Part shown: piece by piece, positions 1,029 through 44,793 of the stretch | How the letters are laid out: every line of letters starts with the position of its first letter | Numbering within the stretch: the first letter of the stretch is position 1 | Source of the DNA: Nitrososphaerota archaeon | Lineage (GTDB): Archaea; Thermoproteota; Nitrososphaeria; Nitrososphaerales; Gagatemarchaeaceae | Length of the DNA: 46,167 bases | Direction of reading: 5' to 3' | Assembly (NCBI GenBank): GCA_027320425.1 | Contig: DAHVLJ010000018.1 | Coordinates: 1-46,167, forward strand | Notes under the pieces: model-generated | Database searches by the model: none | The model's input: only the letters and a program-made list of their open reading frames with translations | What the model was told of the DNA's origin: nothing | Made by a program: the position numbers and the translations under genes

Positions 1029-1742
1029 TCAGCTTCTGCTCTTCAGATAGACGTCTATCCGCTGCTGCAGATCAGCGTTCACTTCTGAAATCGTCCTGCC
1101 GCCGTCCACTCTTACAATTCCATACTTCGCCTCCATCATGGTGAACTCCCTGGCAATCCTTCTCTGATAGAGGACAAACGACTCGTAGAGGTTGTCGGAG
1201 AGCCCGAGATCAGCGCCGGACTCGTAATAGTCGAGCGAGCCGTACTTCTGGAACACCCTGTGGAACAACTCTTCCGGAGGCACGTCGAGGTAGAATACCA
1301 TGTCAGGCGTGACAGCGAAGCCGAAGAGGTTGTGCGACCACACCCTTCCTATGCCTCTGACCGTACTTCTTGCCATAAGGGTATAGATGTACCGGTCTGC
1401 GAGGACCACGTATCCTGCGTGAAGGGCAGGTATGATTTTGTGCTCGAGCTGGTCCGCGAAGTCTGCCGCATAGAACAGCGCGAGCGTCTTTTTGCCCAGC
1501 GGGAGCTTATGCTTCGCCTCGAGGATCCCTGCTCCGATCAACTCCGACCTCTTCAGCCCGGTGGTCACTACCGCATGGCCCGCTGCTTCAAGGTAGCTCG
1601 TAATCAAATCAATCTGACTACTCCTTCCGGAGCCGTCCGGGCCTTCTATGACTATCAGGCTGCCCTTGGACTCGGTCTGCTTCATGTAGGAGATGCCTTC
1701 GCCGAAGAACCTCAGCGGCCTTGAGGTGAGTTGCTGGGTCAC
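1029..1742 (-). CDS. Thymidylate-kinase-like protein with altered Walker A (Lys to Arg)
   Basis: A 237-residue P-loop protein of the dTMP kinase family, paralogous to the gene directly upstream (1739-2452, same length). The P-loop reads GPDGSGRS at residues 34-41: Arg40 replaces the nearly invariant Walker A lysine. The ADRYIYT segment (DRY motif of nucleoside monophosphate kinases) and the YYESG/DLGLS region shared with the paralog are retained. It starts with GTG in a GTGA overlap with its neighbour's stop; an internal ATG at 1685 would remove 19 residues. Genes are co-directional behind an exopolyphosphatase. The Arg suggests reduced or altered kinase activity, possibly a regulatory partner; the true substrate is uncertain. 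Confidence 0.85.
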   Translation of the reverse strand: MTQQLTSRPLRFFGEGISYMKQTESKGSLIVIEGPDGSGRSSQIDLITSYLEAAGHAVVTTGLKRSELIGAGILEAKHKLPLGKKTLALFYAADFADQLEHKIIPALHAGYVVLADRYIYTLMARSTVRGIGRVWSHNLFGFAVTPDMVFYLDVPPEELFHRVFQKYGSLDYYESGADLGLSDNLYESFVLYQRRIAREFTMMEAKYGIVRVDGGRTISEVNADLQQRIDVYLKSRS

Positions 1743-2452
1743 TTTGTGCTATCCCCGTTAGGTTCTGGCATGACCGTAGCAAACCGTGCAGGCAAGAACC
1801 TTCTCACATGTTGGCGCATCTGGCTCTGCTGCTCTTCGATGTCGAGAGTCGCATCGATGACCGCGAAGCCGTCTCTTTTGATCATACCGTCGTACTGTTC
1901 GACGATCTTCGATTGAAAGATCCTGTAGCTCTCGTACTCGTCGTTACTCAGATTGAGGTCCATCCCTGCCTCATAGTACTTCAGCTTCGGCCGTCCCTCC
2001 AATATCCTGTCCATGGCGACCTCGGGGGGCAACCGGAAGTAGAACGTGGCATCAGGGACCTTCGCGAAAGAATAGATCTTCCTCACCCAGGATGGTGTGC
2101 ATCCCCTGACCACGTCTCTTGCGTAGGCGGTGTAGATGTACCGGTCGGCAAGGACGAAGTAGTCCGCCTCGAGCAGCGGAGAGATGTTCCTCTCATATCT
2201 GTCCGCGAAGTCTGTCGCATGAAGCAGGCTGAACGTCGTCGGGGTGAGCAGCGCCTTCTTCTTCCCCTTCGAAGTAATCTCCTTTACCACGTCGGACGAG
2301 TTCCACTCGGTGAAGAACACGTTCAGTCCGAGACTCCTCAGCCATTTGTCCAAGAGGTGCAACTGAGTGGATTTACCAGAACCATCTATCCCTTCGACGA
2401 CGATGAGCCTGCCGCGGGCCCTTCCAACGGAGTTGCCGGCCGACCTCTTCAT
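1739..2452 (-). CDS. tmk: Thymidylate kinase (dTMP kinase) family protein
   Basis: Predicted to phosphorylate dTMP to dTDP with ATP, in dTTP synthesis. The P-loop is canonical, GIDGSGKS at residues 21-28, followed by ADRYIYTAYARD (DRY motif). I choose the ATG at 2452, four bases after the exopolyphosphatase stop, giving 237 residues, equal to the downstream paralog; an ATG at 2485 would add 11 residues overlapping the upstream gene. It is translationally coupled to the Arg-P-loop paralog by a 4-base overlap. The polyphosphate-related neighbours (Ppx, SixA) leave open a phosphoryl donor or substrate other than ATP/dTMP; the family call itself is firm. Confidence 0.87.
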   Translation of the reverse strand: MKRSAGNSVGRARGRLIVVEGIDGSGKSTQLHLLDKWLRSLGLNVFFTEWNSSDVVKEITSKGKKKALLTPTTFSLLHATDFADRYERNISPLLEADYFVLADRYIYTAYARDVVRGCTPSWVRKIYSFAKVPDATFYFRLPPEVAMDRILEGRPKLKYYEAGMDLNLSNDEYESYRIFQSKIVEQYDGMIKRDGFAVIDATLDIEEQQSQMRQHVRRFLPARFATVMPEPNGDSTK

Positions 2453-2456
2453 GCCC

Positions 2457-3965
2457 CTATCTGCCCACCCTGACCAGCCCTGCATGCCTTTCCCTTTCCT
2501 TCACTCCCACGAAAATCGTCACGGGTTTCTTGGCGGCCGTCGCTAGGGCTAGCGCGGCCGTCCTCGCCAACTCCAGCGGGAACGGTCCCTCGCTCCCAAT
2601 CACGCTGATCCTCAGTCCGTTTGAATACGCGACCCTGAACTGAGCCCTGGACTTATCGAGTATCTCGAGCAGCCTCAGGCATGCTCCCATCTTCTTCATC
2701 ACCTTGGCATCGTCGTAGATCATATCGCGATACTGATGGGCGATCCAGTTCGAGGCCCTCGGTTTCCGCGAGCGGACGACAGAGACAGCCATCAGAAGCT
2801 GGTCCTCGTGACTCATAGGCAGGTCTTCACTCATCAAGATACCAAACACTGCGTTTGCATCGGCTTCGGCCGAATCTGGAGAGCGTCCTCTTCTCGCCGC
2901 CGCAAGGATGATTCTCCGCTGCCGTTCGTCGATGATTCCGTTCCTCATCATGCAGTTGAGAAGCTCCTCGTCATCTCCGAGCCCTGAGGGACGAGGCTTG
3001 GCCAGCAGGCGCTCGATGTCTTCTCTTTGTGCGAGGTCGGAGGGACGGGCGCTTCTTTCAAGGAACTCCACGAGAACCCCGTCTCTAAGCCCATGCGTGC
3101 TTACCGTCATCGACCTGAACCCAAGTCTCTTCATCAACATCTTGACCACCAGCGTCCCGGCCGCCATGGTCTCAGACCTCCCTTCGCCTATGGCGTCGAT
3201 CTTGTTCATTTCAGTGACCTTCAGTTTGAAGAATTCCCTGCTCATCTTCTGGACGGATTCCGCGTTTACGGTGTAGTTGTGCACCTTATCCAAAGGGTAG
3301 TTGTTCTCATCAAGATCGTATCGCGCCATCCCCCTTACCGTCCCTCCCGTGCCCACAAGCGTCGTATCCCTGGCCAAACCAAGCTCGCGTCTCGAAGGCA
3401 GCAGCTCCAGCACACGTTCGGCCATTTTTGCCCTGTCCTTGCGGGAGAACTTCCCATCCTTACCAGAGTATAACGAAGTGAGCTTGAGTGCGCCAAGGGG
3501 GAGTGACAGCGTACGCCTGACCCTGGACCTTTCTGCATACGCGACCTCTAAACTTCCACCGCCCAAGTCGAAGTACAAGATGTTAGAAGCGTCTACGGCC
3601 CTGGCAGCGCCGAGGAGGCCGTACAATGCTTCGTCGCTCCCGCTCAGGACCCTCATCTTCATTCCTGTCTCCTTCTCCACTCTCTCCATGAACTCCCCCC
3701 TGTTGGCTGCCTCCCGGACTGGGCTGGTACCGACGAGCAGTACGTGCTTGATCGATTCTAGGGATGCTGTCTCCCTGCAGAGTCTGAGCGCATCTATCGT
3801 ACGGGAAATCGGTTCGATTCCCAGATACCCGGTGCTCTCGAGGCCCTCGCCGAGCTTGGCCATGACTCCCAACTGCCCATATGACTTCGCCGTCCCATCG
3901 GGCTCGACCCTGTACTTGACCATCTTCAGGGAGTTGAACCCGACATCGATGACGGCGACCTTCAT
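2457..3965 (-). CDS. ppx: Exopolyphosphatase / pppGpp phosphohydrolase (Ppx/GppA) family
   Basis: A 502-residue member of the ASKHA-fold Ppx/GppA family, which releases phosphate from the ends of inorganic polyphosphate or from pppGpp. The N-terminal phosphate-1 motif is IDVGFNSLKMV (residues 6-16); YFDLGGGSLEVAY and VGTGGTVRGMARY are the second and third nucleotide-fold signatures. Residues after about 310 form the helical C-terminal part usual in longer bacterial Ppx. ATG start at 3965. It is the first gene of a probable three-gene operon with the two Tmk-like genes, and lies 53 bases downstream of a SixA-like phosphatase on the same strand, a phosphate-metabolism context. Archaea generally lack ppGpp signalling, so polyphosphate is the likelier substrate. 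Confidence 0.9.
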   Translation of the reverse strand: MKVAVIDVGFNSLKMVKYRVEPDGTAKSYGQLGVMAKLGEGLESTGYLGIEPISRTIDALRLCRETASLESIKHVLLVGTSPVREAANRGEFMERVEKETGMKMRVLSGSDEALYGLLGAARAVDASNILYFDLGGGSLEVAYAERSRVRRTLSLPLGALKLTSLYSGKDGKFSRKDRAKMAERVLELLPSRRELGLARDTTLVGTGGTVRGMARYDLDENNYPLDKVHNYTVNAESVQKMSREFFKLKVTEMNKIDAIGEGRSETMAAGTLVVKMLMKRLGFRSMTVSTHGLRDGVLVEFLERSARPSDLAQREDIERLLAKPRPSGLGDDEELLNCMMRNGIIDERQRRIILAAARRGRSPDSAEADANAVFGILMSEDLPMSHEDQLLMAVSVVRSRKPRASNWIAHQYRDMIYDDAKVMKKMGACLRLLEILDKSRAQFRVAYSNGLRISVIGSEGPFPLELARTAALALATAAKKPVTIFVGVKERERHAGLVRVGR

Positions 3966-24300: not shown

Positions 24301-24900
24301 TCAAGGCGTGCCTTCTGGTAAGCGTCGGAGCAGGCTCTGATACCCGGCAGGGTCGTCCACGTCGAACAACACTCCTCCGTCTTCGACCGGGACTTCCAGA
24401 ACCGCCCCTTCGCAGGCGGCTACGACCGACTTGGCGCCAACGTCCCCATGAAGCTTCATCACCGCAGGAAAGAGGCTCCTGTCCAGGATCACCGGGTTCC
24501 CTCTCCTCCCGGAGAAGACCGGCACGACCACCTTCGGCTTCGCCTTCGCGTAGCCGTCGACGAGGGCGTCGACCGTCTTGGGGGCGAGGAGCGGCATGTC
24601 CGCCAGGACCACCATCACAGCCTCCGTCCCCGCCGGAGCGGATTCGATGCCAAGCTTCAGCGAACTGCTCATGCCTTCTCGGTGCTTGCGGTTCACGACA
24701 ACCGTCTCTCTCCGGAGCGCGACTTCCTTCTGGATCTCCTGCGCGTCTTCACCCAACACCACGACAACGCCTGAGACCCTGGTCCGTCGGAGAGTGTCCA
24801 GGACCCTTTCGAGCATCGGCTTGCCGTCCACCTTCATCATGAGCTTCGGTTTTCCCATCCTGACTGACGACCCTGCTGCCAGGACGACAGCAACGACCAA
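24301..24900 (-). CDS. Molybdenum cofactor nucleotidyltransferase, MocA/MobA-like
   Basis: A 199-residue nucleotidyltransferase that would transfer CMP (MocA) or GMP (MobA) to molybdopterin. It has LAAGSSVRMGKPKLMMKVDGKPML at residues 7-30, the signature of this family, and the acidic metal site in VVLADMPLLAP. The hydroxylase encoded beside it belongs to the xanthine dehydrogenase family, whose prokaryotic members commonly use the cytosine dinucleotide cofactor, so MocA is the likelier activity. TTG start, divergent from the sulfite-oxidase-like gene with about 67 bases between them. Confidence 0.87.
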   Translation of the reverse strand: MVVAVVLAAGSSVRMGKPKLMMKVDGKPMLERVLDTLRRTRVSGVVVVLGEDAQEIQKEVALRRETVVVNRKHREGMSSSLKLGIESAPAGTEAVMVVLADMPLLAPKTVDALVDGYAKAKPKVVVPVFSGRRGNPVILDRSLFPAVMKLHGDVGAKSVVAACEGAVLEVPVEDGGVLFDVDDPAGYQSLLRRLPEGTP

Positions 24901-24923: not shown

Positions 24924-24932
24924 GCTATAAAG
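24924..24932 (+). promoter_or_regulatory. TATA box for sulfite-oxidase-like gene
   Basis: GCTATAAAG in the divergent gap is centred about 40 bases before the GTG at 24968, predicting a transcript start near 24953 with a short leader. No second clear TATA for the MocA-like gene was seen on the other strand. Confidence 0.45.
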
Positions 24933-24967: not shown

Positions 24968-26602
24968 GTGAGAAGTCCATCCGGTGCATGGGCTGACGTG
25001 AGGCGTTCCGTCTCTCTCTTCATCTGGGGGACCGTCGCCGGGCTGGCCGCGCTGGGGGTCAACTTCCTCTTCCGGCTGGGCGGGATAGCGGCCTTTCCTC
25101 CGGAGTCGGCGCTCTACGCCTTCCTGAGGGTGGTACCCGCGTCCATCGAGGAGCCCATGGTGCAGGAGTTCGGGGACCTTGCGGGGAAGCTGGGGCTGCT
25201 CGTGGCTACGCTCATCGCGGGGCTTGTGTACGGGGCGACATTCACGCTGTACGACAAGTTCGCGGCCTCCAGGGTCGCCGGGCACGGACTGACCAAGCTC
25301 GAGACGCTCCTCGTGATGGGGGCCGTCCCCTGGCTTGTCTTCGGACTGGCGCTCTTTCCGATAGACGGCGACTCTGCTTTCGGCGTCGCCTCCCCGTTTG
25401 CGACACCCGCTTCCACTCTGGTGTTTCCCCTGGCCCTCCTCCTGGTCCAGGGGGTGTTCGCGTGGATCGCGTCAGCCCGATATTCTCTCCCGCCCGTCCA
25501 GCAGGCGCCTGGGGCGCCCAAGCAGGACCTGAACCGCAGGGAGTTCATCGAGAAAGGAGCGATCGGGATCGTCGCTCTGGCGGGGGTGGTCATGGGAATC
25601 CTCGGCCTTGGGCAGCTCTTCCCCTCCCAACTGCAGGTCGCAGGCGGGAGCCAGCCCATCGACCTCGCAGGCGCGCCAGCGATCTTCAGCGACCCTAGAC
25701 TGGCGACCCTCGTCGGCTCTGAGCTCACCCCAGACCCCGCGTTCTACAGGGTCGACATCGACCTGATCGCGCCGACGATCGACGCGTCGGGGTGGTCGCT
25801 GATGGTGGACGGCCTTGTCAGATCGCCGAAGAGTTTCTCGCTCCAGGACGTCGAGTCCTTCCCGGAAGTGACCCAGTATGCGACCATGGAGTGCGTCAGC
25901 AACGAGCTCAACGGGAGCCTGATAGGCAACGCGAAGTGGGGCGGGACCAAGATATCAGACGTCCTCGGGAGCGCAGGAGGGACGATATCAGGGGCCAGCT
26001 ACGTCGTCTTCTATTCGGTGGACGGCTATTCGGTAAGCATCCCGCTGGCGAAGGCGATGATGCCCGACAGCCTCCTCGCATACAGCATGAACGACCTGCC
26101 GTTGCCCGCCGACCACGGGTATCCCCTGAGGGGTCTGATACCGGGGCTCTATGGGATGATGAGCGCCAAATGGATCGACCGCATCTCTGTGGTGGGGGCG
26201 CCCTATGACGGGTACTGGCAGACGAGGGGGTGGACGAGCAACGCGGCCGTATACACCGAGGCGTTCATAGTCCTCCCGTCTGCGTCGTCGCTGAGCATAT
26301 CGCAGAGCGGAGGCTCCATCGTCATCGCGGGGTTCGCGTTCGCGGGAGAAAGGGGCATATCGAAGGTGGAGGTCAGCCTTGACAACGGCAAGACGTGGCA
26401 GGACGCCACGCTCAAGCCGGCGCTATCGGCGCTGACATGGGTCCTCTGGGCCTACGAGTGGGTCCCGCCGGGCGCTGGAGAATACAAGGTGATAGCAAGG
26501 GCGACAGACGGGACGGGTGCGCTTCAGGTGTCCTCAGTGGAGGGGACGTTCCCCAACGGGGCGACAGGGTACGTGTCGGTCATCCTCCAGCTTTCAGATT
26601 AG
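24968..26602 (+). CDS. Membrane-anchored sulfite-oxidase-family molybdoenzyme
   Basis: A 544-residue fusion. Residues about 12-170 hold four or five membrane helices unlike classical YedY/sulfite oxidases. Then a Tat-like element NRREFIEKGAIGIVALAGVV (189-208) forms another helix. The molybdopterin domain follows: the Mo-binding cysteine is in ATMECVSNELNGSLIGNAKW (Cys309), with WGGTKISDVL and HGYPLRGLIPGLYGM. A beta-sandwich dimerisation-type domain (GISKVEVSLDNGKTWQDATL) ends the chain. The catalytic domain is probably outside the cell. Start is GTG at 24968; GTG at 24998 is possible. The frame is open upstream but overlaps the opposite-strand MocA-like gene. Substrate unknown. Confidence 0.87.
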   Translation: MRSPSGAWADVRRSVSLFIWGTVAGLAALGVNFLFRLGGIAAFPPESALYAFLRVVPASIEEPMVQEFGDLAGKLGLLVATLIAGLVYGATFTLYDKFAASRVAGHGLTKLETLLVMGAVPWLVFGLALFPIDGDSAFGVASPFATPASTLVFPLALLLVQGVFAWIASARYSLPPVQQAPGAPKQDLNRREFIEKGAIGIVALAGVVMGILGLGQLFPSQLQVAGGSQPIDLAGAPAIFSDPRLATLVGSELTPDPAFYRVDIDLIAPTIDASGWSLMVDGLVRSPKSFSLQDVESFPEVTQYATMECVSNELNGSLIGNAKWGGTKISDVLGSAGGTISGASYVVFYSVDGYSVSIPLAKAMMPDSLLAYSMNDLPLPADHGYPLRGLIPGLYGMMSAKWIDRISVVGAPYDGYWQTRGWTSNAAVYTEAFIVLPSASSLSISQSGGSIVIAGFAFAGERGISKVEVSLDNGKTWQDATLKPALSALTWVLWAYEWVPPGAGEYKVIARATDGTGALQVSSVEGTFPNGATGYVSVILQLSD

Positions 26603-26652: not shown

Positions 26653-27900
26653 ATGGCCACGAGGATAGAAGAATACACCGCGGTCGACGACGCTCTCGCG
26701 GCTGTCCGCAGCAAGATGAAGCTCAGGATGAGGAGCGAGGTCATACCAACTTCCAGCGCTCTTGGCAGGGTCTCAGCGGCCACCCTGTCCGCACCGAGGG
26801 ACGTCCCACCCTTCGCCTCCTCGCATATGGACGGGTTCGCCGTCGTCGCAGGGGACCTGAGCGAGGCTTCGGAGGCGAGCCCGGTGGCTCTCAAGGTCGC
26901 AGGAAAGCTCAATCTCGGCGACGCTCCGCGCAGAAGGATAAGGAACGGCGAAGCGTTCCAGGTCTCGACGGGAGGAGCGATCCCCTTAGGGGCAGACGCG
27001 GTCCTACCTGTGGAACACGTGCGCCACGACGGTGACCTCCTGCATGTGAGCTCTGCTGCCGTCCCCGGGCGGCACGTGTACCGGAAAGGGGAGGAGATGA
27101 GGAAGGGAGAGGTACTCGTCAGGGAAGGTCAGGTGATACGCGCCCAGCACACGGGGTTCTTGCTCGGGCTGGGGATCACGAAGGTAAGGGTGAGGGCGAG
27201 GCCCAGGGTCGCGATCGTGGCCACGGGGAGCGAGCTGACCGAAGCCACGGACCCAAAACCTGGGAAGATCCGGGACAGCCACTCGCCATACTTCCGTTCT
27301 CTGTTCAGCGTGCTCGGATGCGACACGATGGGGCTCGGCATCGTGAAAGACGACCCGAAGCTTGTCGGCGCCGCGCTCCGAAAGGGGCTCGCGCGGGCTG
27401 ACTTCGTGGTCACCCTCGGCGGAACCTCCGTGGGCAAGGCCGACGTCGTCGAATCAGCTCTGACCTCCCTCAACCCCGACGTGCTGGTGCACGGGATCAA
27501 GATGGACAGGGGGAGGGTCGCGGGGGTCGCGGTCGTCGGCGGCAGGCCCGTGCTCATGATGCCCGGGCCGGTCCAAGGAGCGATGAACGCTCTGATCCTG
27601 TTGGGCGCGCCGGTGGTAGGCTGGCTGTCGGGTGCTGTCGAAGAGCGGGCAAAGGACGTGGCTTGCGTCCTCGGAGGGGAATGGGACGCGAGGGGGCGTT
27701 TCTCGGACTTCAGGAAGGTGGTTTACGTCAGGCTGAGCAGAGGGTCTCCGGCTTCGGCCGAGCCGCTGCTCGGAGAGACCGAGTCGTTCAGGGTCCTCGC
27801 CGAGGCCGACGGCTATGTGATAGTCCCAGAGAGCGTGACCCACATGTCCAAAGGGGACCTCGTGTCAGTGAAGCTGTTTCCTGGGTTCTCTTTCGCCTAG
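26653..27900 (+). CDS. moeA: Molybdopterin molybdenumtransferase MoeA
   Basis: Inserts molybdate into adenylylated molybdopterin. The 415-residue chain shows the MoeA order: SSHMDGFAV near 55-63, VSTGGAIPLGADAVLPVEHV, RPRVAIVATGSELTE, GKIRDSHSPYF, VTLGGTSVGKADVV and MMPGPVQGAMNA. The usual GxPGNP here reads MPGPVQG, a small deviation in the phosphate loop. The ATG at 26653 has a strong ribosome site GGAGGTC eight bases upstream. Transcribed after the sulfite-oxidase-like gene; its stop overlaps the stop of convergent moaE by four bases. Confidence 0.93.
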   Translation: MATRIEEYTAVDDALAAVRSKMKLRMRSEVIPTSSALGRVSAATLSAPRDVPPFASSHMDGFAVVAGDLSEASEASPVALKVAGKLNLGDAPRRRIRNGEAFQVSTGGAIPLGADAVLPVEHVRHDGDLLHVSSAAVPGRHVYRKGEEMRKGEVLVREGQVIRAQHTGFLLGLGITKVRVRARPRVAIVATGSELTEATDPKPGKIRDSHSPYFRSLFSVLGCDTMGLGIVKDDPKLVGAALRKGLARADFVVTLGGTSVGKADVVESALTSLNPDVLVHGIKMDRGRVAGVAVVGGRPVLMMPGPVQGAMNALILLGAPVVGWLSGAVEERAKDVACVLGGEWDARGRFSDFRKVVYVRLSRGSPASAEPLLGETESFRVLAEADGYVIVPESVTHMSKGDLVSVKLFPGFSFA

Positions 27901-38293: not shown

Positions 38294-39022
38294 ATGGCAA
38301 GAGTCTCCACAGAGCTGTGGACCGCCAAGAACTTCTATTGCGCCTCATGCGGATTTGGGTTATCTTCCTACCCGCCGGGGACGAAGGTTTACGATTTCTA
38401 CTCTCAGGACTGCAACGAAAAGTTCCAGCTAAAATCGTCGGCATCTTCATTCTCGGGTTCAATCCTCGGCTCCGAGTACGGGACAACGATTAGGAGCATT
38501 ATGGAATCGGTGCACCCATCCTTGATCTTGCTTCAATATGACCGTGCAAGGTGGACCGTCCAGAACCTCTCCTTGATTCATCGGGCGTGCATAACATCGA
38601 GTTGCATCATACCGAGGCGGCCCTTGTCAGCGACTGCGAGAAGAGCTGGTTGGCAGGGCTGCATCATCTCTATCGCGTCTATTCCAGAAATCGGCAGAAT
38701 TCCTGTTGTATTCAAAGGCCGGGTTAGACGTAAGGAGTCGGTCCTTTCACAGTGGACGCGCAGCGAGAAGCTCCTCCAAGTCGAACCTGAAAGAAGGGGG
38801 TGGCTCGCAGATGTGCTGAGCTGCGTCGAGCGCCTCTATTCCTCCTTCACTATCCAGAATATGTATTCTTTCGAGGCGGAGCTCTCAGCCAAGCATCCTA
38901 ACAACCGCAACGTCAGGGCCAAAATCAGACAGCAACTGCAAATTCTCCGCGATATGGGGTTGGTAGAATTCGTCGGCCCCGGGGTCTATCGCCAGTTCAA
39001 AAGGGCGAACGAATCGCTTTGA
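38294..39022 (+). CDS. DpnI-family methyl-directed restriction endonuclease, start codon probably lost
   Basis: Close to DpnI, which cuts DNA containing G-m6A-T-C. Shared blocks: ARVSTELW, the zinc pair FYCASCG (Cys16, Cys19), the PD-(D/E)XK site VYDFYSQDCNEKFQLKS, PLSATARRAGWQGC, and the C-terminal winged helix VRAKIRQQLQILRDMGLVEF with a final YRQF. Asp34 and Lys47 are kept; position 45 is Gln where DpnI has its catalytic Glu64, and Ser37 replaces a zinc cysteine. The frame continues 17 codons upstream with conserved family sequence (SFKSPSQ), up to an ACG at 38243 preceded by GGAG at the right distance, where Met is expected. Thus 38294 is only the first ATG; the gene may be decaying or use ACG. 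Confidence 0.88.
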   Translation: MARVSTELWTAKNFYCASCGFGLSSYPPGTKVYDFYSQDCNEKFQLKSSASSFSGSILGSEYGTTIRSIMESVHPSLILLQYDRARWTVQNLSLIHRACITSSCIIPRRPLSATARRAGWQGCIISIASIPEIGRIPVVFKGRVRRKESVLSQWTRSEKLLQVEPERRGWLADVLSCVERLYSSFTIQNMYSFEAELSAKHPNNRNVRAKIRQQLQILRDMGLVEFVGPGVYRQFKRANESL

Positions 39023-39075
39023 CTAGAAGAATCGAGCACGCCAATCTCGAGGCCGTGTTGCTTCACTCGGCAAAT

Positions 39076-39085
39076 GTCTAAATCA
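39076..39085 (+). promoter_or_regulatory. TATA box for DGQHR gene
   Basis: GTCTAAATCA is centred about 31 bases upstream of the ATG at 39112, as expected for a leaderless promoter. It indicates that the DGQHR gene can be transcribed separately from the DpnI-like gene. Confidence 0.4.
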
Positions 39086-39111
39086 CAACTTGGTCGAATC
39101 GTCGCGCTGTA

Positions 39112-41277
39112 ATGCCTCAGGTATACAGGCTACCTACGGTAAGCAAGTTCGACGCGCGGGAGGTCCTAACCGACGACGAGGCAAGAGAGTTAGAACAAAC
39201 CGGTTATGTCAGGCGACCGAATCGACGTCGAGGGAGGATCGTACTTCGAAAGGAGAAAGAAAAATGGGTCATCTTTGAGGATGAAGCCAAGGCCTTCTTG
39301 ACTGTGCTCGAATTTACAGATGTGGGCGCGGGATACCTGGGCGAGAATCAGATCGACGCGTACGGGGGGTTCGATCGGACTTTCGTGGTTTTCGACTGCG
39401 CGACACGCGAGGAACCGGGATTGGCATCGCTAAGGAACAAGATCCTGACATTTGCTGGTAAGAAGACAGCCATCAAGAGAGCTGTGAGGAGGCAATATCC
39501 ACGATACACCGAAGTGAAGTTCGTAATAGCCACACGAGACATCGATGTGGCAAGAGATGATTTGGGACTCGCCGCTCAGAGGGGAATTGAACTGTGGAGC
39601 GAGCGCCAGTTCGAAATGTACCGGTCCCTATACAAACAGGTTGGAACTCTCGTAAGGTATTGGCTATTGAAGGAACTTGGCGCCAGTAAGAAAAGAATTG
39701 TCGATGGAGGAGATGCGTACTATAAGCCATGGGCATTTGAGGTCGTTTCTCGTGGCGAATCACCATACTATCTATTTCTGATTGATGCGGATTCTCTGAC
39801 ACGAATTGGATACGTCTCTCGTCTCTTGCCTGGTGCAAAGAATTCCTATCAGAGAGTACTGTTTCAGAGTAAGATCAACTCCATCGCAAGATACATCGAA
39901 GATGGAGGAACCTTTCAGAATAACGCCATTGTAAGTCTCGAACCCGGAGCCAGATTCGTTCCGAGTAGGACGATCTCTCCTGGAATTCGAGCTGGCACAA
40001 TAAGGATTCCAAAGTACTACGCCACGGCTTGGATAATCGACGGGCAGCATCGAGTGTTTGGGTATAGGAAGGCTGATCCAGCTAACATGGGGAAATTCAT
40101 GCCAGTCTCTGCTTTCATCAACATGCGAGGTGGGAAGCAAATCGAATTATACACCACGATCAACAGAAATCAGAAGCCCGTCGATGCGAACGACATATGG
40201 TACCTCTATCCTGTGACAGTCCCCGGTTCTTACTATGCGTGGGTTTCGTCAATCGTTCAAGAGTTGAATGCGGCTGGTCCGCTTAGAGACCTCATATTCG
40301 TACCAGGAGTGAGTTCGAGACTCAAGTCAGAGTATGCCATGAAGCTCGCAAGCGTTTGTGACAGTCTGGAACAGACCACTTTGTGGGAGTTCTTAGCTGG
40401 CCGATCAGCCAACTATCCACCTCAATCGGTTCAGATTTCAGTCAGCCTCATCAATGAATACTTCTCGTTCGTCAATGCGATCGTCACGCCAATAGGAAGT
40501 CACTGGCTTGACAATTTCTTTCACACAAATAGTGGGGCCGACGTAGCGCTTAGAATCCTGGGAGATGGACTACAGTGGGGCCGTGGATATTTCCGGATAA
40601 CCAGCCCACGCGAAGTGCTCCGCAAAATCCTTCCGATACTCAAGGATCCACTGGTGAAGTATTGCACAATCAATTCCTCTACGATTGGTGACCTCATCAA
40701 GGAATCCATCTCTTACGGAGGTCGAGAGAGGATTTCAGCAAGAATTGGTGTAGTGATTTCGCAAAGCGCGAGAGGTTGGGGGGGCGTAAAGGTTGACAAC
40801 CTGTTGCATCAGCCGGAATTCGTCATCATCTCAGAATTTGAAACTGAATTGCGAAGAGCGATTGTAGATGCTTTGGGAGCAGTGGGTGGTGATTGGTGGG
40901 CAGCGAGAGTGCCTGAGGATGTTCGTACTGGAGCGGAGGGACTACGCACCCGGGAAGTGGACGCGGGGCTCTTACCGAGGGCCGGCTTGATTGACTACGT
41001 TGAATTCGAAGACTACAAGAAGATAATACTGAAGAGAGACAATTGGCGGGAAGTATTCACCTCGATATTTGCACAAGAAGACTTCATCTCAAGCAGGCTT
41101 GCGGATTTATCTGCTATCAGGAATGTCGTCATGCATAGCGGAAGATCGCTGACCGACGACGAGAAGGCCAAGCTTGAAATGTTCACTAGAGAAGTTTTGA
41201 ACAAGATTCGACGCTGGCGGGAAAGACATGCAGCCAACAGTCCTGGGAATGTTACGTCGAGCAATGACAGTACCTAA
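39112..41277 (+). CDS. Three-domain defence protein: degenerate nuclease-like, DGQHR, HEPN
   Basis: A 721-residue protein. Residues about 55-190 resemble a restriction-endonuclease fold (NQIDAYGG with Asp82, then FVVFDCAT with Asp95, but Ala97 where the lysine should be), so it is probably not catalytic. The middle carries IIDGQHRVFGY (DGQHR 310-314), the hallmark of the DndB/ParB-like DGQHR family found in DNA-modification and defence loci, followed by ELYTTINRNQKPVD. The end (about 630-700) looks like a Swt1-type HEPN domain with RNVVMH (Arg670, His675), the R-x4-H RNase motif. ATG at 39112. Flanked by the DpnI-like gene and a restriction-modification cluster. Confidence 0.82.
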   Translation: MPQVYRLPTVSKFDAREVLTDDEARELEQTGYVRRPNRRRGRIVLRKEKEKWVIFEDEAKAFLTVLEFTDVGAGYLGENQIDAYGGFDRTFVVFDCATREEPGLASLRNKILTFAGKKTAIKRAVRRQYPRYTEVKFVIATRDIDVARDDLGLAAQRGIELWSERQFEMYRSLYKQVGTLVRYWLLKELGASKKRIVDGGDAYYKPWAFEVVSRGESPYYLFLIDADSLTRIGYVSRLLPGAKNSYQRVLFQSKINSIARYIEDGGTFQNNAIVSLEPGARFVPSRTISPGIRAGTIRIPKYYATAWIIDGQHRVFGYRKADPANMGKFMPVSAFINMRGGKQIELYTTINRNQKPVDANDIWYLYPVTVPGSYYAWVSSIVQELNAAGPLRDLIFVPGVSSRLKSEYAMKLASVCDSLEQTTLWEFLAGRSANYPPQSVQISVSLINEYFSFVNAIVTPIGSHWLDNFFHTNSGADVALRILGDGLQWGRGYFRITSPREVLRKILPILKDPLVKYCTINSSTIGDLIKESISYGGRERISARIGVVISQSARGWGGVKVDNLLHQPEFVIISEFETELRRAIVDALGAVGGDWWAARVPEDVRTGAEGLRTREVDAGLLPRAGLIDYVEFEDYKKIILKRDNWREVFTSIFAQEDFISSRLADLSAIRNVVMHSGRSLTDDEKAKLEMFTREVLNKIRRWRERHAANSPGNVTSSNDST

Positions 41278-41388
41278 CGGGTCTCCTGTGCGCAATTCAT
41301 CGAGAGAGTACTCCGTACTAACTGAATAGCCCAGTTCGGTGATAGTAGTAATGGAATATTCGCAGAATGATTCCGTGTTCTTCACTTG

Positions 41389-41400
41389 CTAGAATATTGT
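41389..41400 (+). promoter_or_regulatory. TATA box for small paralog A
   Basis: CTAGAATATTGT is centred about 31 bases before the TTG start at 41426, the best promoter candidate in the 148-base gap after the DGQHR gene. An inverted AGTAC/GTACT lies further upstream (near 41310). Confidence 0.4.
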
Positions 41401-41425
41401 CAAAGCGGACGCAAACAGCCAGTTA

Positions 41426-41905
41426 TTGGCAGAGCCTGAAGGAGTCGTCTCTTGGGACGCAAATGCACTAAGAGAAGCTATGCGATTGAGCGAGGCCGAA
41501 GTCAGAGCATATTTTACAGACGGCCGCCGAATCTCCTTCATACTGGAACGACGAATAAACCGCGAATTCGTTCATGGAACCCTCGCTCCCAGCGAGGGTG
41601 ATAGATTTGACATAATAGACTCATCTGGTGATAAGTGGGAGGTCCGAAGCATAACGCCTGCCACAGGGGTCTATTTCTGCCCAAGCAACATGGTAGGATC
41701 GTCACGCCACTTCAGCGAACCTGGTTTTCTGAGGAAGCTCGACGAGACGGAGGGCTTCCTACTGACTGACATTGAATCATTCCCAAACGTTCCATTCTGG
41801 AGAGTGACTTCGCAACAGGTTCGGTTCTGGTGGGGAAGGCGGATGCTCGGCGCTTCCACGAGGATATCCCGAACTACTGCATTGGAACTGCTTAGAAAGC
41901 TTTGA
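41426..41905 (+). CDS. Small HTH plus nuclease-like protein, paralog A (candidate restriction endonuclease)
   Basis: A 159-residue protein clearly paralogous to 43003-43476. Residues about 12-35 look like a helix-turn-helix (LREAMRLSEAEVRAYFTDGR). The core has FILERR (Glu41), then FDIIDSSGDKWEVRSIT with Asp62/Asp65 and Glu72-Val-Arg74, a pattern reminiscent of PD-(D/E)XK nucleases with Arg for the usual Lys. Conserved aromatic and Gly/Ser-rich strands follow (CPSNMVGSSRHF; ESFPNVPFWRV). TTG start placed by alignment with its paralog and by the TATA box. It converges on a TSPPY methyltransferase gene. Endonuclease function is inferred from context and weak motifs. Confidence 0.7.
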   Translation: MAEPEGVVSWDANALREAMRLSEAEVRAYFTDGRRISFILERRINREFVHGTLAPSEGDRFDIIDSSGDKWEVRSITPATGVYFCPSNMVGSSRHFSEPGFLRKLDETEGFLLTDIESFPNVPFWRVTSQQVRFWWGRRMLGASTRISRTTALELLRKL

Positions 41906-41949
41906 CCTTTTCTCCTACAGACTGCAATCTGAGTGTGTAGATACACTGC

Positions 41950-41979
41950 CTCACAAGGAGCTAATCTGTGCCTTGTGAG
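41950..41979. terminator. Bidirectional hairpin between convergent genes
   Basis: CTCACAAGG and CCTTGTGAG form a perfect 9-bp stem around a 12-base loop. The hairpin spans the stop codon of the methyltransferase gene (41961-41963, minus strand) and lies 45 bases after the stop of paralog A, as a terminator or RNA-stabilising element shared by convergent transcripts would. Confidence 0.5.
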
Positions 41980-42923
41980 TTCCCAAGCGGCTCGGTTGAA
42001 CTCTTGAATGCCTTTACCCTCTCGCTCGCCTCCTTGAGATAGGCCTCATCTACATCGAAACCTATACACGGCTTGCGAACCTTCAGGCTGGCCAAGGCGG
42101 TAGTTCCTATTCCCACGAATGGGTCAAGGACCAATCGTGTTCTATCGAGGCCGTGGACTTTGATGCACATTTCTGGTAGAGAGACAGGAAAGGTGGATGG
42201 GTGCGGCCTTTGCGTCTCCCGGTCCCAGATTGTCTCGTAGGGAATGAACCATGTGTTTCCCCTGTCCCTCAGATCTCTCTGAGCCTTCTTCCACCTCCCA
42301 ATATTGGACTTGTCTTGATATGGGACGCCTACAGCCAACCGATCCAGTTCTACATCACCATCCTTGGTGAAGTGGAATATGTACTCATGAGCATCGTTCA
42401 GGAAACGCTTCCCTCCTATTGGCTTGTAATGTCCGACGGCGATATCCCCTTTGATGTTCTCATACTTCCCAGCATCCCTCTTTGGGATGGCGATTGACTT
42501 GATCCAGTGAATTGTGTTCTGAAGTGCGAAGGTCTTCCTCATCCGTTCCGCTATCTCGAGTGGTATCCAAGGGTCCTTTAGCGTCCCTCCGACGTTGAGG
42601 AAGAAAGACCCTTTGTCGGAGAGGATTCGCCTGACCGCGACGCCCACACGTTCCATCCAATCAAGGTAGTCCTGTTTGGGGCGGGTGTCCTCATACGCAT
42701 TGTACTTGACTCCTATGTTGTAAGGTGGCGATGTGACAACCACGTCGACGCTACCCGGTTGAAGGACCGCTTGCATCCCCTTCAAGCAATCTTCTTTGTA
42801 GAGCCTTACGCCGTTTAGTTCGAAGTATGGCGTCAGTTGTGTCTGCTTGATACTCGGCTGATCCTGGGACGCTCCCATGACCACAGGGGACTCAGCGCCC
42901 ATGTCCGCTCTCGACACTACCAA
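41961..42923 (-). CDS. DNA methyltransferase, beta-type order, TSPPY (probable N4-cytosine)
   Basis: A 320-residue S-adenosylmethionine-dependent DNA methyltransferase. The catalytic motif TSPPYN is at 64-69 and the SAM-binding DPFVGIGTT at 267-275, the circularly permuted (beta) order. [13 protein letters not shown] and [14 protein letters not shown] lie between. TSPPY is typical of enzymes methylating cytosine N4, though adenine cannot be excluded. TTG start at 42923; a GTG at 42917 has a better ribosome site (AGGTGG, six-base gap). Third gene on the minus strand after the other methyltransferase and paralog B, and convergent with paralog A, so either small protein could be its nuclease partner. 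Recognition sequence unknown. Confidence 0.92.
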
Positions 42924-43002
42924 CCACCTTTTCTTGTCTTTGATTCCGCTCCTATTTCAATGGTAGCAGAGTGTTGGGCAGGCGAGCATCGATGACTCTT
43001 GG

Positions 43003-43476
43003 CTATCGTAAGAGGTCGAGGATCTTTTCTCGTGAAACCTTGGTGGTCGTTCCCAATTGGCCGGCTTCCCACCACTTCCTGACCTGGTCTGAGCTGACGA
43101 TCCAAAACGGAACGTCGGGAAACGATTCGACATCTGATAATATGAAACCTTTCACACCTTTCAGTTTATCCAAGAAGCCCTTCTCCTTGAAACTTCTTCC
43201 AGACCCCACCATATAGCTTGGGCTGAAATAGATGCCTCCCCGAGTGATGCTCCTGACCTCCCACTTATCCCCGTTCGAGTCGATCAGGTCATACCCTGCC
43301 CCCTCACTCGGAGCTAGTCGCCCCTTCAGAACCTCGTATGCGAGCCGTCTTTCTAGAATGAAAGAGACACGCCGACCATCAGTGAAATAATTCCTCACAT
43401 CGCTCTCAGTTATCTTCAGGGCCTTCGCAATCTCAGCGACGTTCCAGCTCAGCGTACCAGCTGGTTTCGGCGTCAA
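43003..43476 (-). CDS. Small HTH plus nuclease-like protein, paralog B (candidate restriction endonuclease)
   Basis: A 157-residue paralog of 41426-41905. Shared blocks include YFTDGRR-SFILERR, LAPSEG, GDKWEVRSIT, GFL-KL and ESFP-VPFW. The N-terminal helix-turn-helix is clearer here (VAEIAKALKITESDVRNYF). Candidate active-site residues are Glu42, Asp63/Asp66 and Glu73-Val-Arg75, identical in both copies. TTG start, also as in paralog A. It lies 27 bases downstream of a methyltransferase gene on the same strand, the usual layout of a restriction-modification pair. A DNA-binding regulator of the methyltransferase is the main alternative. Confidence 0.7.
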   Translation of the reverse strand: MTPKPAGTLSWNVAEIAKALKITESDVRNYFTDGRRVSFILERRLAYEVLKGRLAPSEGAGYDLIDSNGDKWEVRSITRGGIYFSPSYMVGSGRSFKEKGFLDKLKGVKGFILSDVESFPDVPFWIVSSDQVRKWWEAGQLGTTTKVSREKILDLLR

Positions 43477-43503
43477 TCGGCACGACGCCGCTCAACAAGT
43501 TAC

Positions 43504-44793
43504 TTATCTCTTCTGAAAGACCAGAATGTTCTCTTTCCGCATGACGTTGTAAAGCCCAAAGATGATCTTGTCTATGTTGTTCGCAAGCCTGAACCCCACC
43601 TTCTCAGCTTCTTTGACTGTGAACTGTACTGTCTCCACCTCCGCGCCATCAAAAGTAGCGTTACCGATTACAATTGCGGCCGACCTCCCATTCCGCAGGA
43701 CCCTGTACATCTCCGCGATGCTCTCTTTCATGTCCTGTTCATAGAGACCGATTCTATCCCTCGGCGGACCTCGAACCCCAATCAACCTCTCCCTCATGCT
43801 CTCCACATCATGCCCAAGTTCCTTCAGCGAATGCTTGTCGTTCTCGACGTAATCGAGGGCAATGGAGTACGGAGGCGATGTCACAATACCGTCAACACTT
43901 TCATCCTGTATGGGCAGGTTCCGTGCATCACCTTCTCGTATGTCTATGCGGCCGAGTGCCAATCCGAGCTTATCGCGTACTGTGACGAAGTCTCCGACTG
44001 ACTGAATCATCGCTTGGAGGTTCTCAGAGAATGACTTGTAGAAGTCCCTGTGTCGGCGGGCACTGTCGCTCACAGAGACTAGCTTCGCCATCTCGAAGAA
44101 GTTCCTTGCCTTCTCGTTCTGTATCGATTTGATGGCACCCACGAGGTCGCTCTGTTCTCCATAGAGAGGCGATGGAGCACTTTTCGGGACGGCATCCTCA
44201 GCCTGTTTGATTACGTCCAAGGCGCCAATCGATTCGGTCTTCACTTTGGTCTGAAGAACGCAAAGGGGGGAGGCGTCTATTCCAATGCAATTGATGCCCA
44301 GGAGTTGAGCCTCGAGTGCAGTTGTGCCGCTTCCCACGAAGGGGTCCAGCACAGTTTCCCCTTCACCGAGACCAAGGTAGTTTAGCAACGCTCTGACCAT
44401 CTGAGGGTGAAACTTCCCCTTGTATGGGTAAATCCAGTGCGTTAGGTACTGGTTGACTGAATTGGTTCTGTTGTACTGTAGGATTTTGAAATAATCCGTC
44501 GCAGTTCCGTTCACTGAGTGAAAGTAGGCAAGGCGTTTGAGAAGCTGTTTTTCGTCATTGATCTTCAGTAGATCGAACTTTCGCAGGCCATTGGTGATCT
44601 TGAATTCCGCTCCGAGAGCTTGGAGCTCGAGCTCTGCGAGAGCGAGTTCGTAGATGAATTGGACGTTATCGAGCAGGACTATCCCTTGAGATTCTAAAGA
44701 TGCCGCGTTTTTGTAAGCCCAGGTCGTAGAGAGTTCCTCAGCGCGTTCGATCATCCTTGTGGATTTGAAGCTTCCTTGTTCTGTTGGCTCCAC
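43504..44793 (-). CDS. DNA methyltransferase, DPFVGSGTT...TSPPY type (probable N4-cytosine)
   Basis: A 429-residue DNA methyltransferase with SAM motif DPFVGSGTT at 150-158 and catalytic TSPPYS at 305-310, the non-permuted order opposite to the second methyltransferase. Preceding HWIYPYKGKFHPQMVRALL and following DYVENDKHSLKELG are usual for this class. Residues 1-110 form a helical extension, maybe for target recognition. GTG start at 44793, at the expected transcription start for the palindromic TATA box CCTTTTAAGG. First gene of a minus-strand set of three (this, paralog B, second methyltransferase). Target unknown. Confidence 0.92.
   Translation of the reverse strand: MEPTEQGSFKSTRMIERAEELSTTWAYKNAASLESQGIVLLDNVQFIYELALAELELQALGAEFKITNGLRKFDLLKINDEKQLLKRLAYFHSVNGTATDYFKILQYNRTNSVNQYLTHWIYPYKGKFHPQMVRALLNYLGLGEGETVLDPFVGSGTTALEAQLLGINCIGIDASPLCVLQTKVKTESIGALDVIKQAEDAVPKSAPSPLYGEQSDLVGAIKSIQNEKARNFFEMAKLVSVSDSARRHRDFYKSFSENLQAMIQSVGDFVTVRDKLGLALGRIDIREGDARNLPIQDESVDGIVTSPPYSIALDYVENDKHSLKELGHDVESMRERLIGVRGPPRDRIGLYEQDMKESIAEMYRVLRNGRSAAIVIGNATFDGAEVETVQFTVKEAEKVGFRLANNIDKIIFGLYNVMRKENILVFQKR

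Follow-up and report, generated by a model that had tools for sequence, protein, structure and literature searches.

Proteins in which four membrane helices are followed by a twin-arginine (RR) helix and a molybdenum cofactor (Moco) domain have been described as dual-targeted by the Sec and Tat pathways (Tooke et al., 2017; PMC5449189). Sco3746 and its homologues in Actinobacteria, Firmicutes, Chloroflexi and Euryarchaeota possess five transmembrane (TM) domains, the twin arginine before the fifth and a C-terminal Moco domain, and conserved histidines in helices 2, 3 and 4 are the predicted ligands of two b haems; reporter fusions to Sco3746 require RR and Tat for their export, and membrane insertion takes place without Tat (PMC5449189). 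For Nitrososphaerales, enzymes of the sulfite oxidase superfamily with N-terminal helices were reported by Sheridan et al. (2020; PMC7603488), who interpreted the helices as probable cytochromes and took the enzyme for a sulfite oxidase in a main text that has neither the word Tat nor the word twin. According to a review of methionine sulfoxide reductases in archaea (PMC6211008), the molybdenum enzyme MsrP is not common there.

The window analysed here, the whole stretch of 46,167 nucleotides from a Nitrososphaerota archaeon, encodes at 24968-26602 a protein of 544 amino acids. Like the Sco3746 class (PMC5449189), it is predicted to have five TM helices with the N-terminus inside, RR directly before the fifth and the Moco domain at the C-terminus; unlike that class as described, its type lacks conserved TM histidines, the predicted b-haem ligands. 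With the enzymes of Sheridan et al. (2020; PMC7603488) it shares the phylum, a PF00174 and a dimerisation domain and several N-terminal helices, and, matched by description, both in all likelihood belong to the same family. The layout and the family in Nitrososphaerota are both already in print and the fusion is not new in kind; a search of the open-access literature yielded no report that addresses the absence of the histidines, Tat targeting in the archaeal form or the absent arginine discussed below. We think it rather likely that the protein represents, in archaea, a widespread group of Sec/Tat-targeted, haem-free, membrane-fused molybdenum enzymes of the sulfite oxidase fold, for which a substrate other than sulfite is favoured.

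One frame for membrane helices and molybdenum domain

The features of the locus are as follows (all residue numbers refer to the 544-residue protein).

24301..24900, minus strand: MobA-like nucleotidyltransferase, divergent upstream neighbour
24926..24931, plus strand: TATAAA, possible archaeal TATA box, function suggested by sequence
24968..26602, plus strand: whole gene, 544 amino acids, GTG start and TAG stop, single open frame with full-length homologues
24980..25078, plus strand: TM helix 1, residues 5-37 (AlphaFold2 model)
25097..25171, plus strand: two short helices, residues 44-55 and 58-68, on the outer face by predicted topology, holding P45-E46 and P57 (AlphaFold2 and 85-row alignment)
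25178..25261, plus strand: TM helix 2, residues 71-98 (AlphaFold2)
25295..25363, plus strand: TM helix 3, residues 110-132 (AlphaFold2)
25412..25474, plus strand: TM helix 4, residues 149-169 (AlphaFold2)
25535..25540, plus strand: twin arginine R190-R191 in LNRREFIEKG, predicted cytoplasmic (85-row alignment)
25541..25603, plus strand: TM helix 5 after RR, residues about 192-212 (AlphaFold2)
25604..25648, plus strand: low-confidence linker, residues about 213-227 (pLDDT <50 at 212-227 in the full-length model)
25769..26218, plus strand: Mo-cofactor domain PF00174, residues 268-417 (Pfam)
25892..25894, plus strand: Cys309, equivalent of the Mo-ligating cysteine (85 of 85 rows; aligned with the sulfite oxidase cysteine)
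26264..26527, plus strand: dimerisation domain PF03404, residues 433-520 (Pfam)
26653..27900, plus strand: moeA (Moco insertion), 50 bases downstream on the same strand

In the Pfam analysis of the 544-residue protein, PF00174 scored 154.9 bits (cut-off 24, E 1.9e-45) and PF03404 scored 37.2 bits (cut-off 22.7, E 3.5e-9), and the best PDB matches of the full-length model were SorA (2blf, 1.1e-24), chicken and plant sulfite oxidase, SorT and SoxC, so that the original prediction of a sulfite-oxidase-fold enzyme was borne out. Similarly, the nearest solved structures by sequence are plant, bacterial and chicken sulfite oxidases. In its own genome, a 0.9 Mb draft that is 53.5% complete, the 544-residue protein alone matches PF00174. 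The TATAAA lies about 40 bases ahead of the GTG, which fits a promoter.

An AlphaFold2 model of residues 1-208, computed from a 39-row alignment, had a mean pLDDT of 90.6 and showed helices at 5-37, 44-55, 58-68, 71-98, 100-104, 110-132, 149-169 and 188-207, and the full-length model (47-row alignment) had a mean pLDDT of 88.8 and a pTM of 0.81, with a weak stretch at 212-227, the junction between helix 5 and the Mo domain. We read these models as four membrane helices and some short ones ahead of RR, and a fifth membrane helix at and after RR. Of the four or five helices originally placed before the twin arginine, four are thus found there and the fifth is not; the internal Tat-like segment in the middle of the chain is present as proposed, with RR at residues 190-191 after four TM helices.

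It had also been suggested that a real start near 25550 would turn the membrane part into a separate gene. Searching 60 relatives and the own genome, we found full-length homologues, defined as aligned from residue 18 or earlier to residue 534 or later, at 24 places in 21 of the 61 genomes (own included). In eight loci (L003-L008, L010 and L011, among which L006-L008 give an identical match) an in-frame stop lies 0-5 residues ahead of the matched start and closes the frame just before helix 1, which rules out longer upstream coding there. The part with TM helices 1-4 aligns in frame with five relatives at 41-59% identity and changes most at codon position 3; between the window and L003, the differences per codon position are 0.30, 0.21 and 0.56. 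R190-R191, C309, P45-E46 and P57 are kept in all rows of a 15-row alignment. A point in favour of a membrane protein followed by a separate Mo enzyme that starts near 25550 is a frame of 375 amino acids, found as L023 and L096, which are one and the same, that comprises helix 5 and the Mo domain only; no separate TM gene was present among frames of at least 110 amino acids just upstream of L096. In another locus (L090) the two halves lie in different frames, most likely owing to a single frameshift in the draft. At the level of sequence, in-frame conservation and coding-type change of the TM domain, together with the stop-bounded frames, rule out a wrong start, and we leave two genes practically no probability. 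The fusion of a built-in membrane domain to the Mo domain therefore stands on a single frame and on its full-length homologues.

Twin arginine, predicted topology and distribution

For counts across the family we used 85 rows, that is, the distinct full-length frames (profile start at or before 20, end at or after 515) among 158 matching frames, together with three plasmid rows admitted by name and with near-copies remaining. RR occupies the position of residues 190-191 in 80 of these rows, in several of them with SRRxFxxK-like surroundings, and the others have KR (two), RK (two) or RS (one); the rows with RK, KR or RS before helix 5 are all from Nitrososphaerota (L058, L061, L080, L087 and L088). 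Lysines and arginines number 3, 1 and 4 in the inside segments (N-terminus, between helices 2 and 3, between helices 4 and 5) and 1, 0 and 0 in the outside segments (between helices 1 and 2, between helices 3 and 4, after helix 5), a charge pattern consistent with an N-terminus inside, RR on the cytoplasmic side and an external Mo domain. The window protein thus has what is seen in Sec/Tat dual-targeted Moco proteins, namely an even number of TM helices and then RR directly ahead of the last one, and a C-terminal cofactor domain.

The twin arginine might also be mere charge, with Sec alone placing all five helices and the TM domain serving as a simple anchor. Helix 5 of the window protein is more hydrophobic than its other four helices (score 0.3 on a simple scale), and residues 214-240 after it contain no lysine or arginine, so that the published signals for a Sec/Tat handover, low hydrophobicity of the RR helix and following positive charges, are not seen in this protein; in the family, the median hydrophobicity of helix 5 is low at 2.2, like that of helix 4 at 2.5 on the same scale. 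Sec alone would also agree with the five rows that deviate from RR and with the distribution of TatC, which was found in 50 of 61 genomes and in 30 of the 32 good-quality ones, and which, by a tally across the homologue and TatC tables of the 61 genomes, is present in 14 of 21 carriers of the full-length gene versus 36 of 40 other genomes. The seven carriers in which TatC was not found (G000, G008, G022, G027, G028, G032 and G058), the window's own genome among them, are drafts of 53.5-91% completeness; the TatC protein of the close relative G012 gave no match in them while the positive controls G012 and G017 matched, and the incompleteness of the drafts may be the cause. Cofactor insertion and folding of a Moco enzyme should precede its export, which speaks against Sec alone, as do the 80 of 85 rows with RR and their sequence context. 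Furthermore, Sco3746, which has a similar layout, was Tat-dependent in reporter fusions (PMC5449189). Weighing these points, and taking the TatC tally as a small shift towards Sec alone and away from the favoured reading, we give insertion by Sec alone only a slight chance and consider that the window protein probably uses Tat for its Mo domain.

The nearest named records are metagenome-assembled genomes (MAGs) called Nitrososphaerota, Nitrososphaerales or simply 'archaeon', with 61-66% identity. A profile scan with one genome per species gave 324 relatives, and the best 80 of these come from Nitrososphaerota, 'Euryarchaeota' MAGs, Chloroflexi, Armatimonadetes and one 'Proteobacteria', some carrying no name beyond 'archaeon' or 'bacterium'. 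Within the class to which one Chloroflexota genome belongs, some part of the profile is matched at 1e-40 or better in 24 of 29 genomes. An even draw of 200 genomes from the window's phylum gave only 3 with a match at 1e-60, including the genome of the window itself, which indicates a patchy occurrence in that phylum. Plasmids of Actinomycetota and Halobacteria bear the same fused design, and no relatives were found on viral contigs. An internal twin arginine after other membrane segments, originally called unusual, is therefore a layout shared by Nitrososphaerota, 'Euryarchaeota' MAGs, Chloroflexi, Armatimonadetes, Actinomycetota and Halobacteria, and a published class (PMC5449189).

Some copies are found in other settings or other states. 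The actinobacterial and Thermus plasmid copies L153, L116, L154 and L155 adjoin genes for fasciclin-domain proteins or for sigma/anti-sigma factors, unlike the copy in the window. In a genome of the same genus that is scored as 100% complete (G015), locus L026 is a broken remnant whose match begins at residue 388 and is fragmented and interrupted by stops.

Histidines and kinship of the membrane domain

The window protein has two histidines, one at position 106 in a loop and one at position 383 in the Mo domain, and hence none in a TM helix, so the paired histidines of the haem b membrane domain of MsrQ/YedZ are absent and the original observation that haem-binding histidines are not evident holds. 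These positions rule out a haem-binding domain for the window protein. Across the 85 rows, helices 1 to 5 contain any histidine in only 3, 6, 4, 11 and 4 rows, respectively, and the commonest histidine column of the N-terminal part reaches 7 rows and lies in a loop; the conserved histidines of the Sco3746 type in helices 2, 3 and 4 were not found. With no conserved histidine in the membrane domain, the membrane electron transfer originally considered is unlikely to run through b haems, and from the counts a haem-binding domain seems unlikely for the family as a whole. Four rows (L016, L019, L051 and L109) have histidines in two of helices 1-4, and some of these members might bind a cofactor there. 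L016, L019 and L051 have histidines in both helix 3 and helix 4, unlike nearly all other rows, and possibly form a cofactor-binding offshoot.

Other residues of the TM part are well conserved: G21 (in 75 of 85 rows), G25 (71), R36 (66), P45 (75), E46 (73), P57 (85), A72 (71) and G89 (67). Lysine occupies position 73 in 62 of 85 rows, and the window has Gly73 followed by Lys74.

A different fused design exists as well. A haem-type fused protein from Chloroflexota has four helices, of which helix 2 holds one conserved histidine and helix 4 holds two; RR and the Mo domain follow, and, judged by its length, the protein is without the dimerisation part. The TM domains of 60 archaeal and 22 bacterial window-type rows matched each other in hhalign with a probability of 99.4 (E 2.4e-21), whereas the archaeal or bacterial window-type TM domain versus the haem-type fused domain gave 0.1 and 0.4, that is, no match; the bacterial set excludes the three haloarchaeal plasmid rows, and with these rows counted in it the haem type was not matched either. 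The Mo domains of window type and haem type, used as positive control, matched at 99.9. Kinship of the window TM domain with the haem-type fused domain is thus not detectable by profile comparison. The contrast originally drawn with the separate YedY and YedZ proteins of bacteria is therefore half the picture, since fusion also occurs in bacteria, in forms that have TM histidines and in others that do not.

Foldseek found no PDB match for the TM domain at E 0.001 or better, and the best VIA-align Z among Foldseek's 748 chains was 4.5, a score that for a helical bundle is not telling either way. No Pfam family matched the TM part of the window protein at 0.01, and DUF6789 was matched by the TM part of 2 of 39 family members (best 9.9e-6).

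In a tree of the Mo domains, of a quick kind with 81 hand-chosen rows, SH-aLRT support only and a weak deep order, 47 window-type rows and 4 others fall into one branch of 51 (SH-aLRT 95) and 14 haem-type rows fall into another (SH-aLRT 99). The window-type label requires 5 changes on this tree, at least 3 of them forced by starred branches, which points to losses, or to mislabelled rows such as L155, inside the window-type branch; L155, from Thermus, was scored as without helices and by eye has a divergent hydrophobic region in frame.

The spacing of the helices in Sco3746, 60/40/34/50 from the published positions 39, 99, 139, 173 and 223 (PMC5449189), is nearer to the 58/39/36/47 of the window and unlike that of most haem-type rows, a comparison made with the published description of Sco3746. 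What is published about its histidines agrees better with the haem type (PMC5449189). Either Sco3746 represents a third layout, or its haem assignment deserves a second look.

Active site, gene neighbourhood and a proposed mode of action

All 85 rows keep Cys309, His383, Arg388 and Lys401, and Cys309 aligns with the Mo-ligating cysteine of sulfite oxidase; thus the Moco site looks intact. Sulfite oxidases in our alignments show CAGNRR after the cysteine, and an arginine shortly after it (R190 of the chicken enzyme) is what we take to be the sulfite-binding residue. No row has arginine at Cys+4 or Cys+5 (0 of 85), and the first Trp after the Cys follows at a distance of 15 residues in 83 of 85 rows, compared to 29 in the chicken sulfite oxidase chain. 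The absent arginine and the short Cys-Trp stretch cast doubt on sulfite as the substrate, and the enzyme is probably not a sulfite oxidase. Among the NCBIfam models the window protein stayed far below the cut-offs of SoxC (134.1 of 420 bits), SorA (122.8 of 600) and SorT (87.5 of 570).

These data bear on the proposal that the archaeal protein is a sulfite oxidase whose helices form a new kind of cytochrome domain, as hypothesised for Nitrososphaerales by Sheridan et al. (2020; PMC7603488). That published text speaks in its favour, and so do the fold of the Mo and dimerisation domains, which is nearest to SorA and the chicken and plant sulfite oxidases, and the four rows with histidines in two of helices 1-4. 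The scarcity of histidines in any one helix, the missing arginine with the shortened loop, by which the window protein differs from these same enzymes, and the low NCBIfam scores stand against it, and we regard a sulfite oxidase with a cytochrome domain as improbable. To our knowledge, SorA and the chicken and plant sulfite oxidases have no such membrane domain.

The protein might also unite MsrP and MsrQ (YedY and YedZ) in one chain and act as a methionine sulfoxide reductase that lies outside and is supplied by the membrane. The predicted placement is the same, since in both cases a Mo domain outside the membrane goes together with a multi-helix membrane partner, and the sulfite-binding arginine of sulfite oxidases is absent. 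However, MsrP-MsrQ consists of two proteins with haem b in the partner, MsrP is not known to have the dimerisation domain that the window protein has, and the NCBIfam MsrP model gave 38.1 bits versus a cut-off of 207. Paired histidines are missing in the window protein, and its TM domain shows no detectable relation to the haem-type domain of the fused Chloroflexota proteins. A one-chain MsrP-MsrQ thus seems about as doubtful as the sulfite oxidase with a cytochrome domain.

moeA is the gene next to the one encoding the fused protein, and further frames nearby were read from their translations as moaE, moaD, moaA, moaC and moaB. At least one of moeA, moaE, moaA and moaC occurs in the examined flank of 12 of 80 loci, many of these loci being short contigs. 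When 98 of 146 flank ORFs were scanned, no recurrent redox partner appeared among the 25 commonest of 114 families, and the commonest family, MoCF_biosynth, had 4 ORFs.

Other parts of the window hold unrelated genes. Between 20368 and 24234, beside the Moco genes, lie genes for a CoxL/M/S-type molybdenum hydroxylase, a second Mo enzyme family, with a convergent CoxG. A defence-like island at 38294-44793 comprises a match to a methyl-directed type II REase (38294-39019), a DndB/DpdB-like protein (39112-41274) and two REase_II proteins matched by one model (41426-41902, plus strand; 43006-43476, minus strand), each adjoining a DNA methylase (41964-42923 and 43507-44793, both minus strand), which looks like a doubled restriction-modification pair. 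At 1029-2485 (minus strand) two adjacent similar frames, named thymidylate-kinase-like from reading the sequence, form an apparent tandem pair.

For the haem-free, dual-targeted enzyme that we favour, the following course can be envisaged. Sec would insert helices 1-4 so that the N-terminus stays inside, and the Mo domain would fold and receive Moco in the cytoplasm, moeA being the neighbouring gene. RR and helix 5 would then pass the folded Mo domain to Tat, and once outside the cell it would remain anchored by helix 5 and the four-helix domain. As b-haem ligands are lacking, electrons would more plausibly pass to or from either a quinone at the outer face, near the conserved residues P45-E46 and P57, or a soluble outside carrier. 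The sequence and the models show the fusion, RR and the charge pattern of an N-in chain, as well as the fold, an intact Cys ligand and the lack of TM histidines in the window protein, whereas its Tat use, Moco loading and activity are what we infer from them. Going further, we tentatively entertain the possibility, which we hold to be less likely than its opposite, that membrane fusion evolved on two or more occasions within the sulfite oxidase superfamily. One of these would have brought in a cytochrome-b-like domain, and another, seen in the window protein and across archaea and bacteria, a four-helix domain free of haem that would handle quinone or a lipid-soluble substrate directly, making the latter a new kind of membrane Mo enzyme and not a sulfite oxidase.

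Published work gives such enzymes of soil ammonia-oxidising archaea a role in sulfite oxidation and possibly a new cytochrome, and the sequence evidence speaks against both. If Tat is indeed used, Sec/Tat dual targeting would extend to Nitrososphaerota. Should the domain prove to function without haem, a membrane Mo enzyme of this kind would be present in both soil archaea and Chloroflexota.
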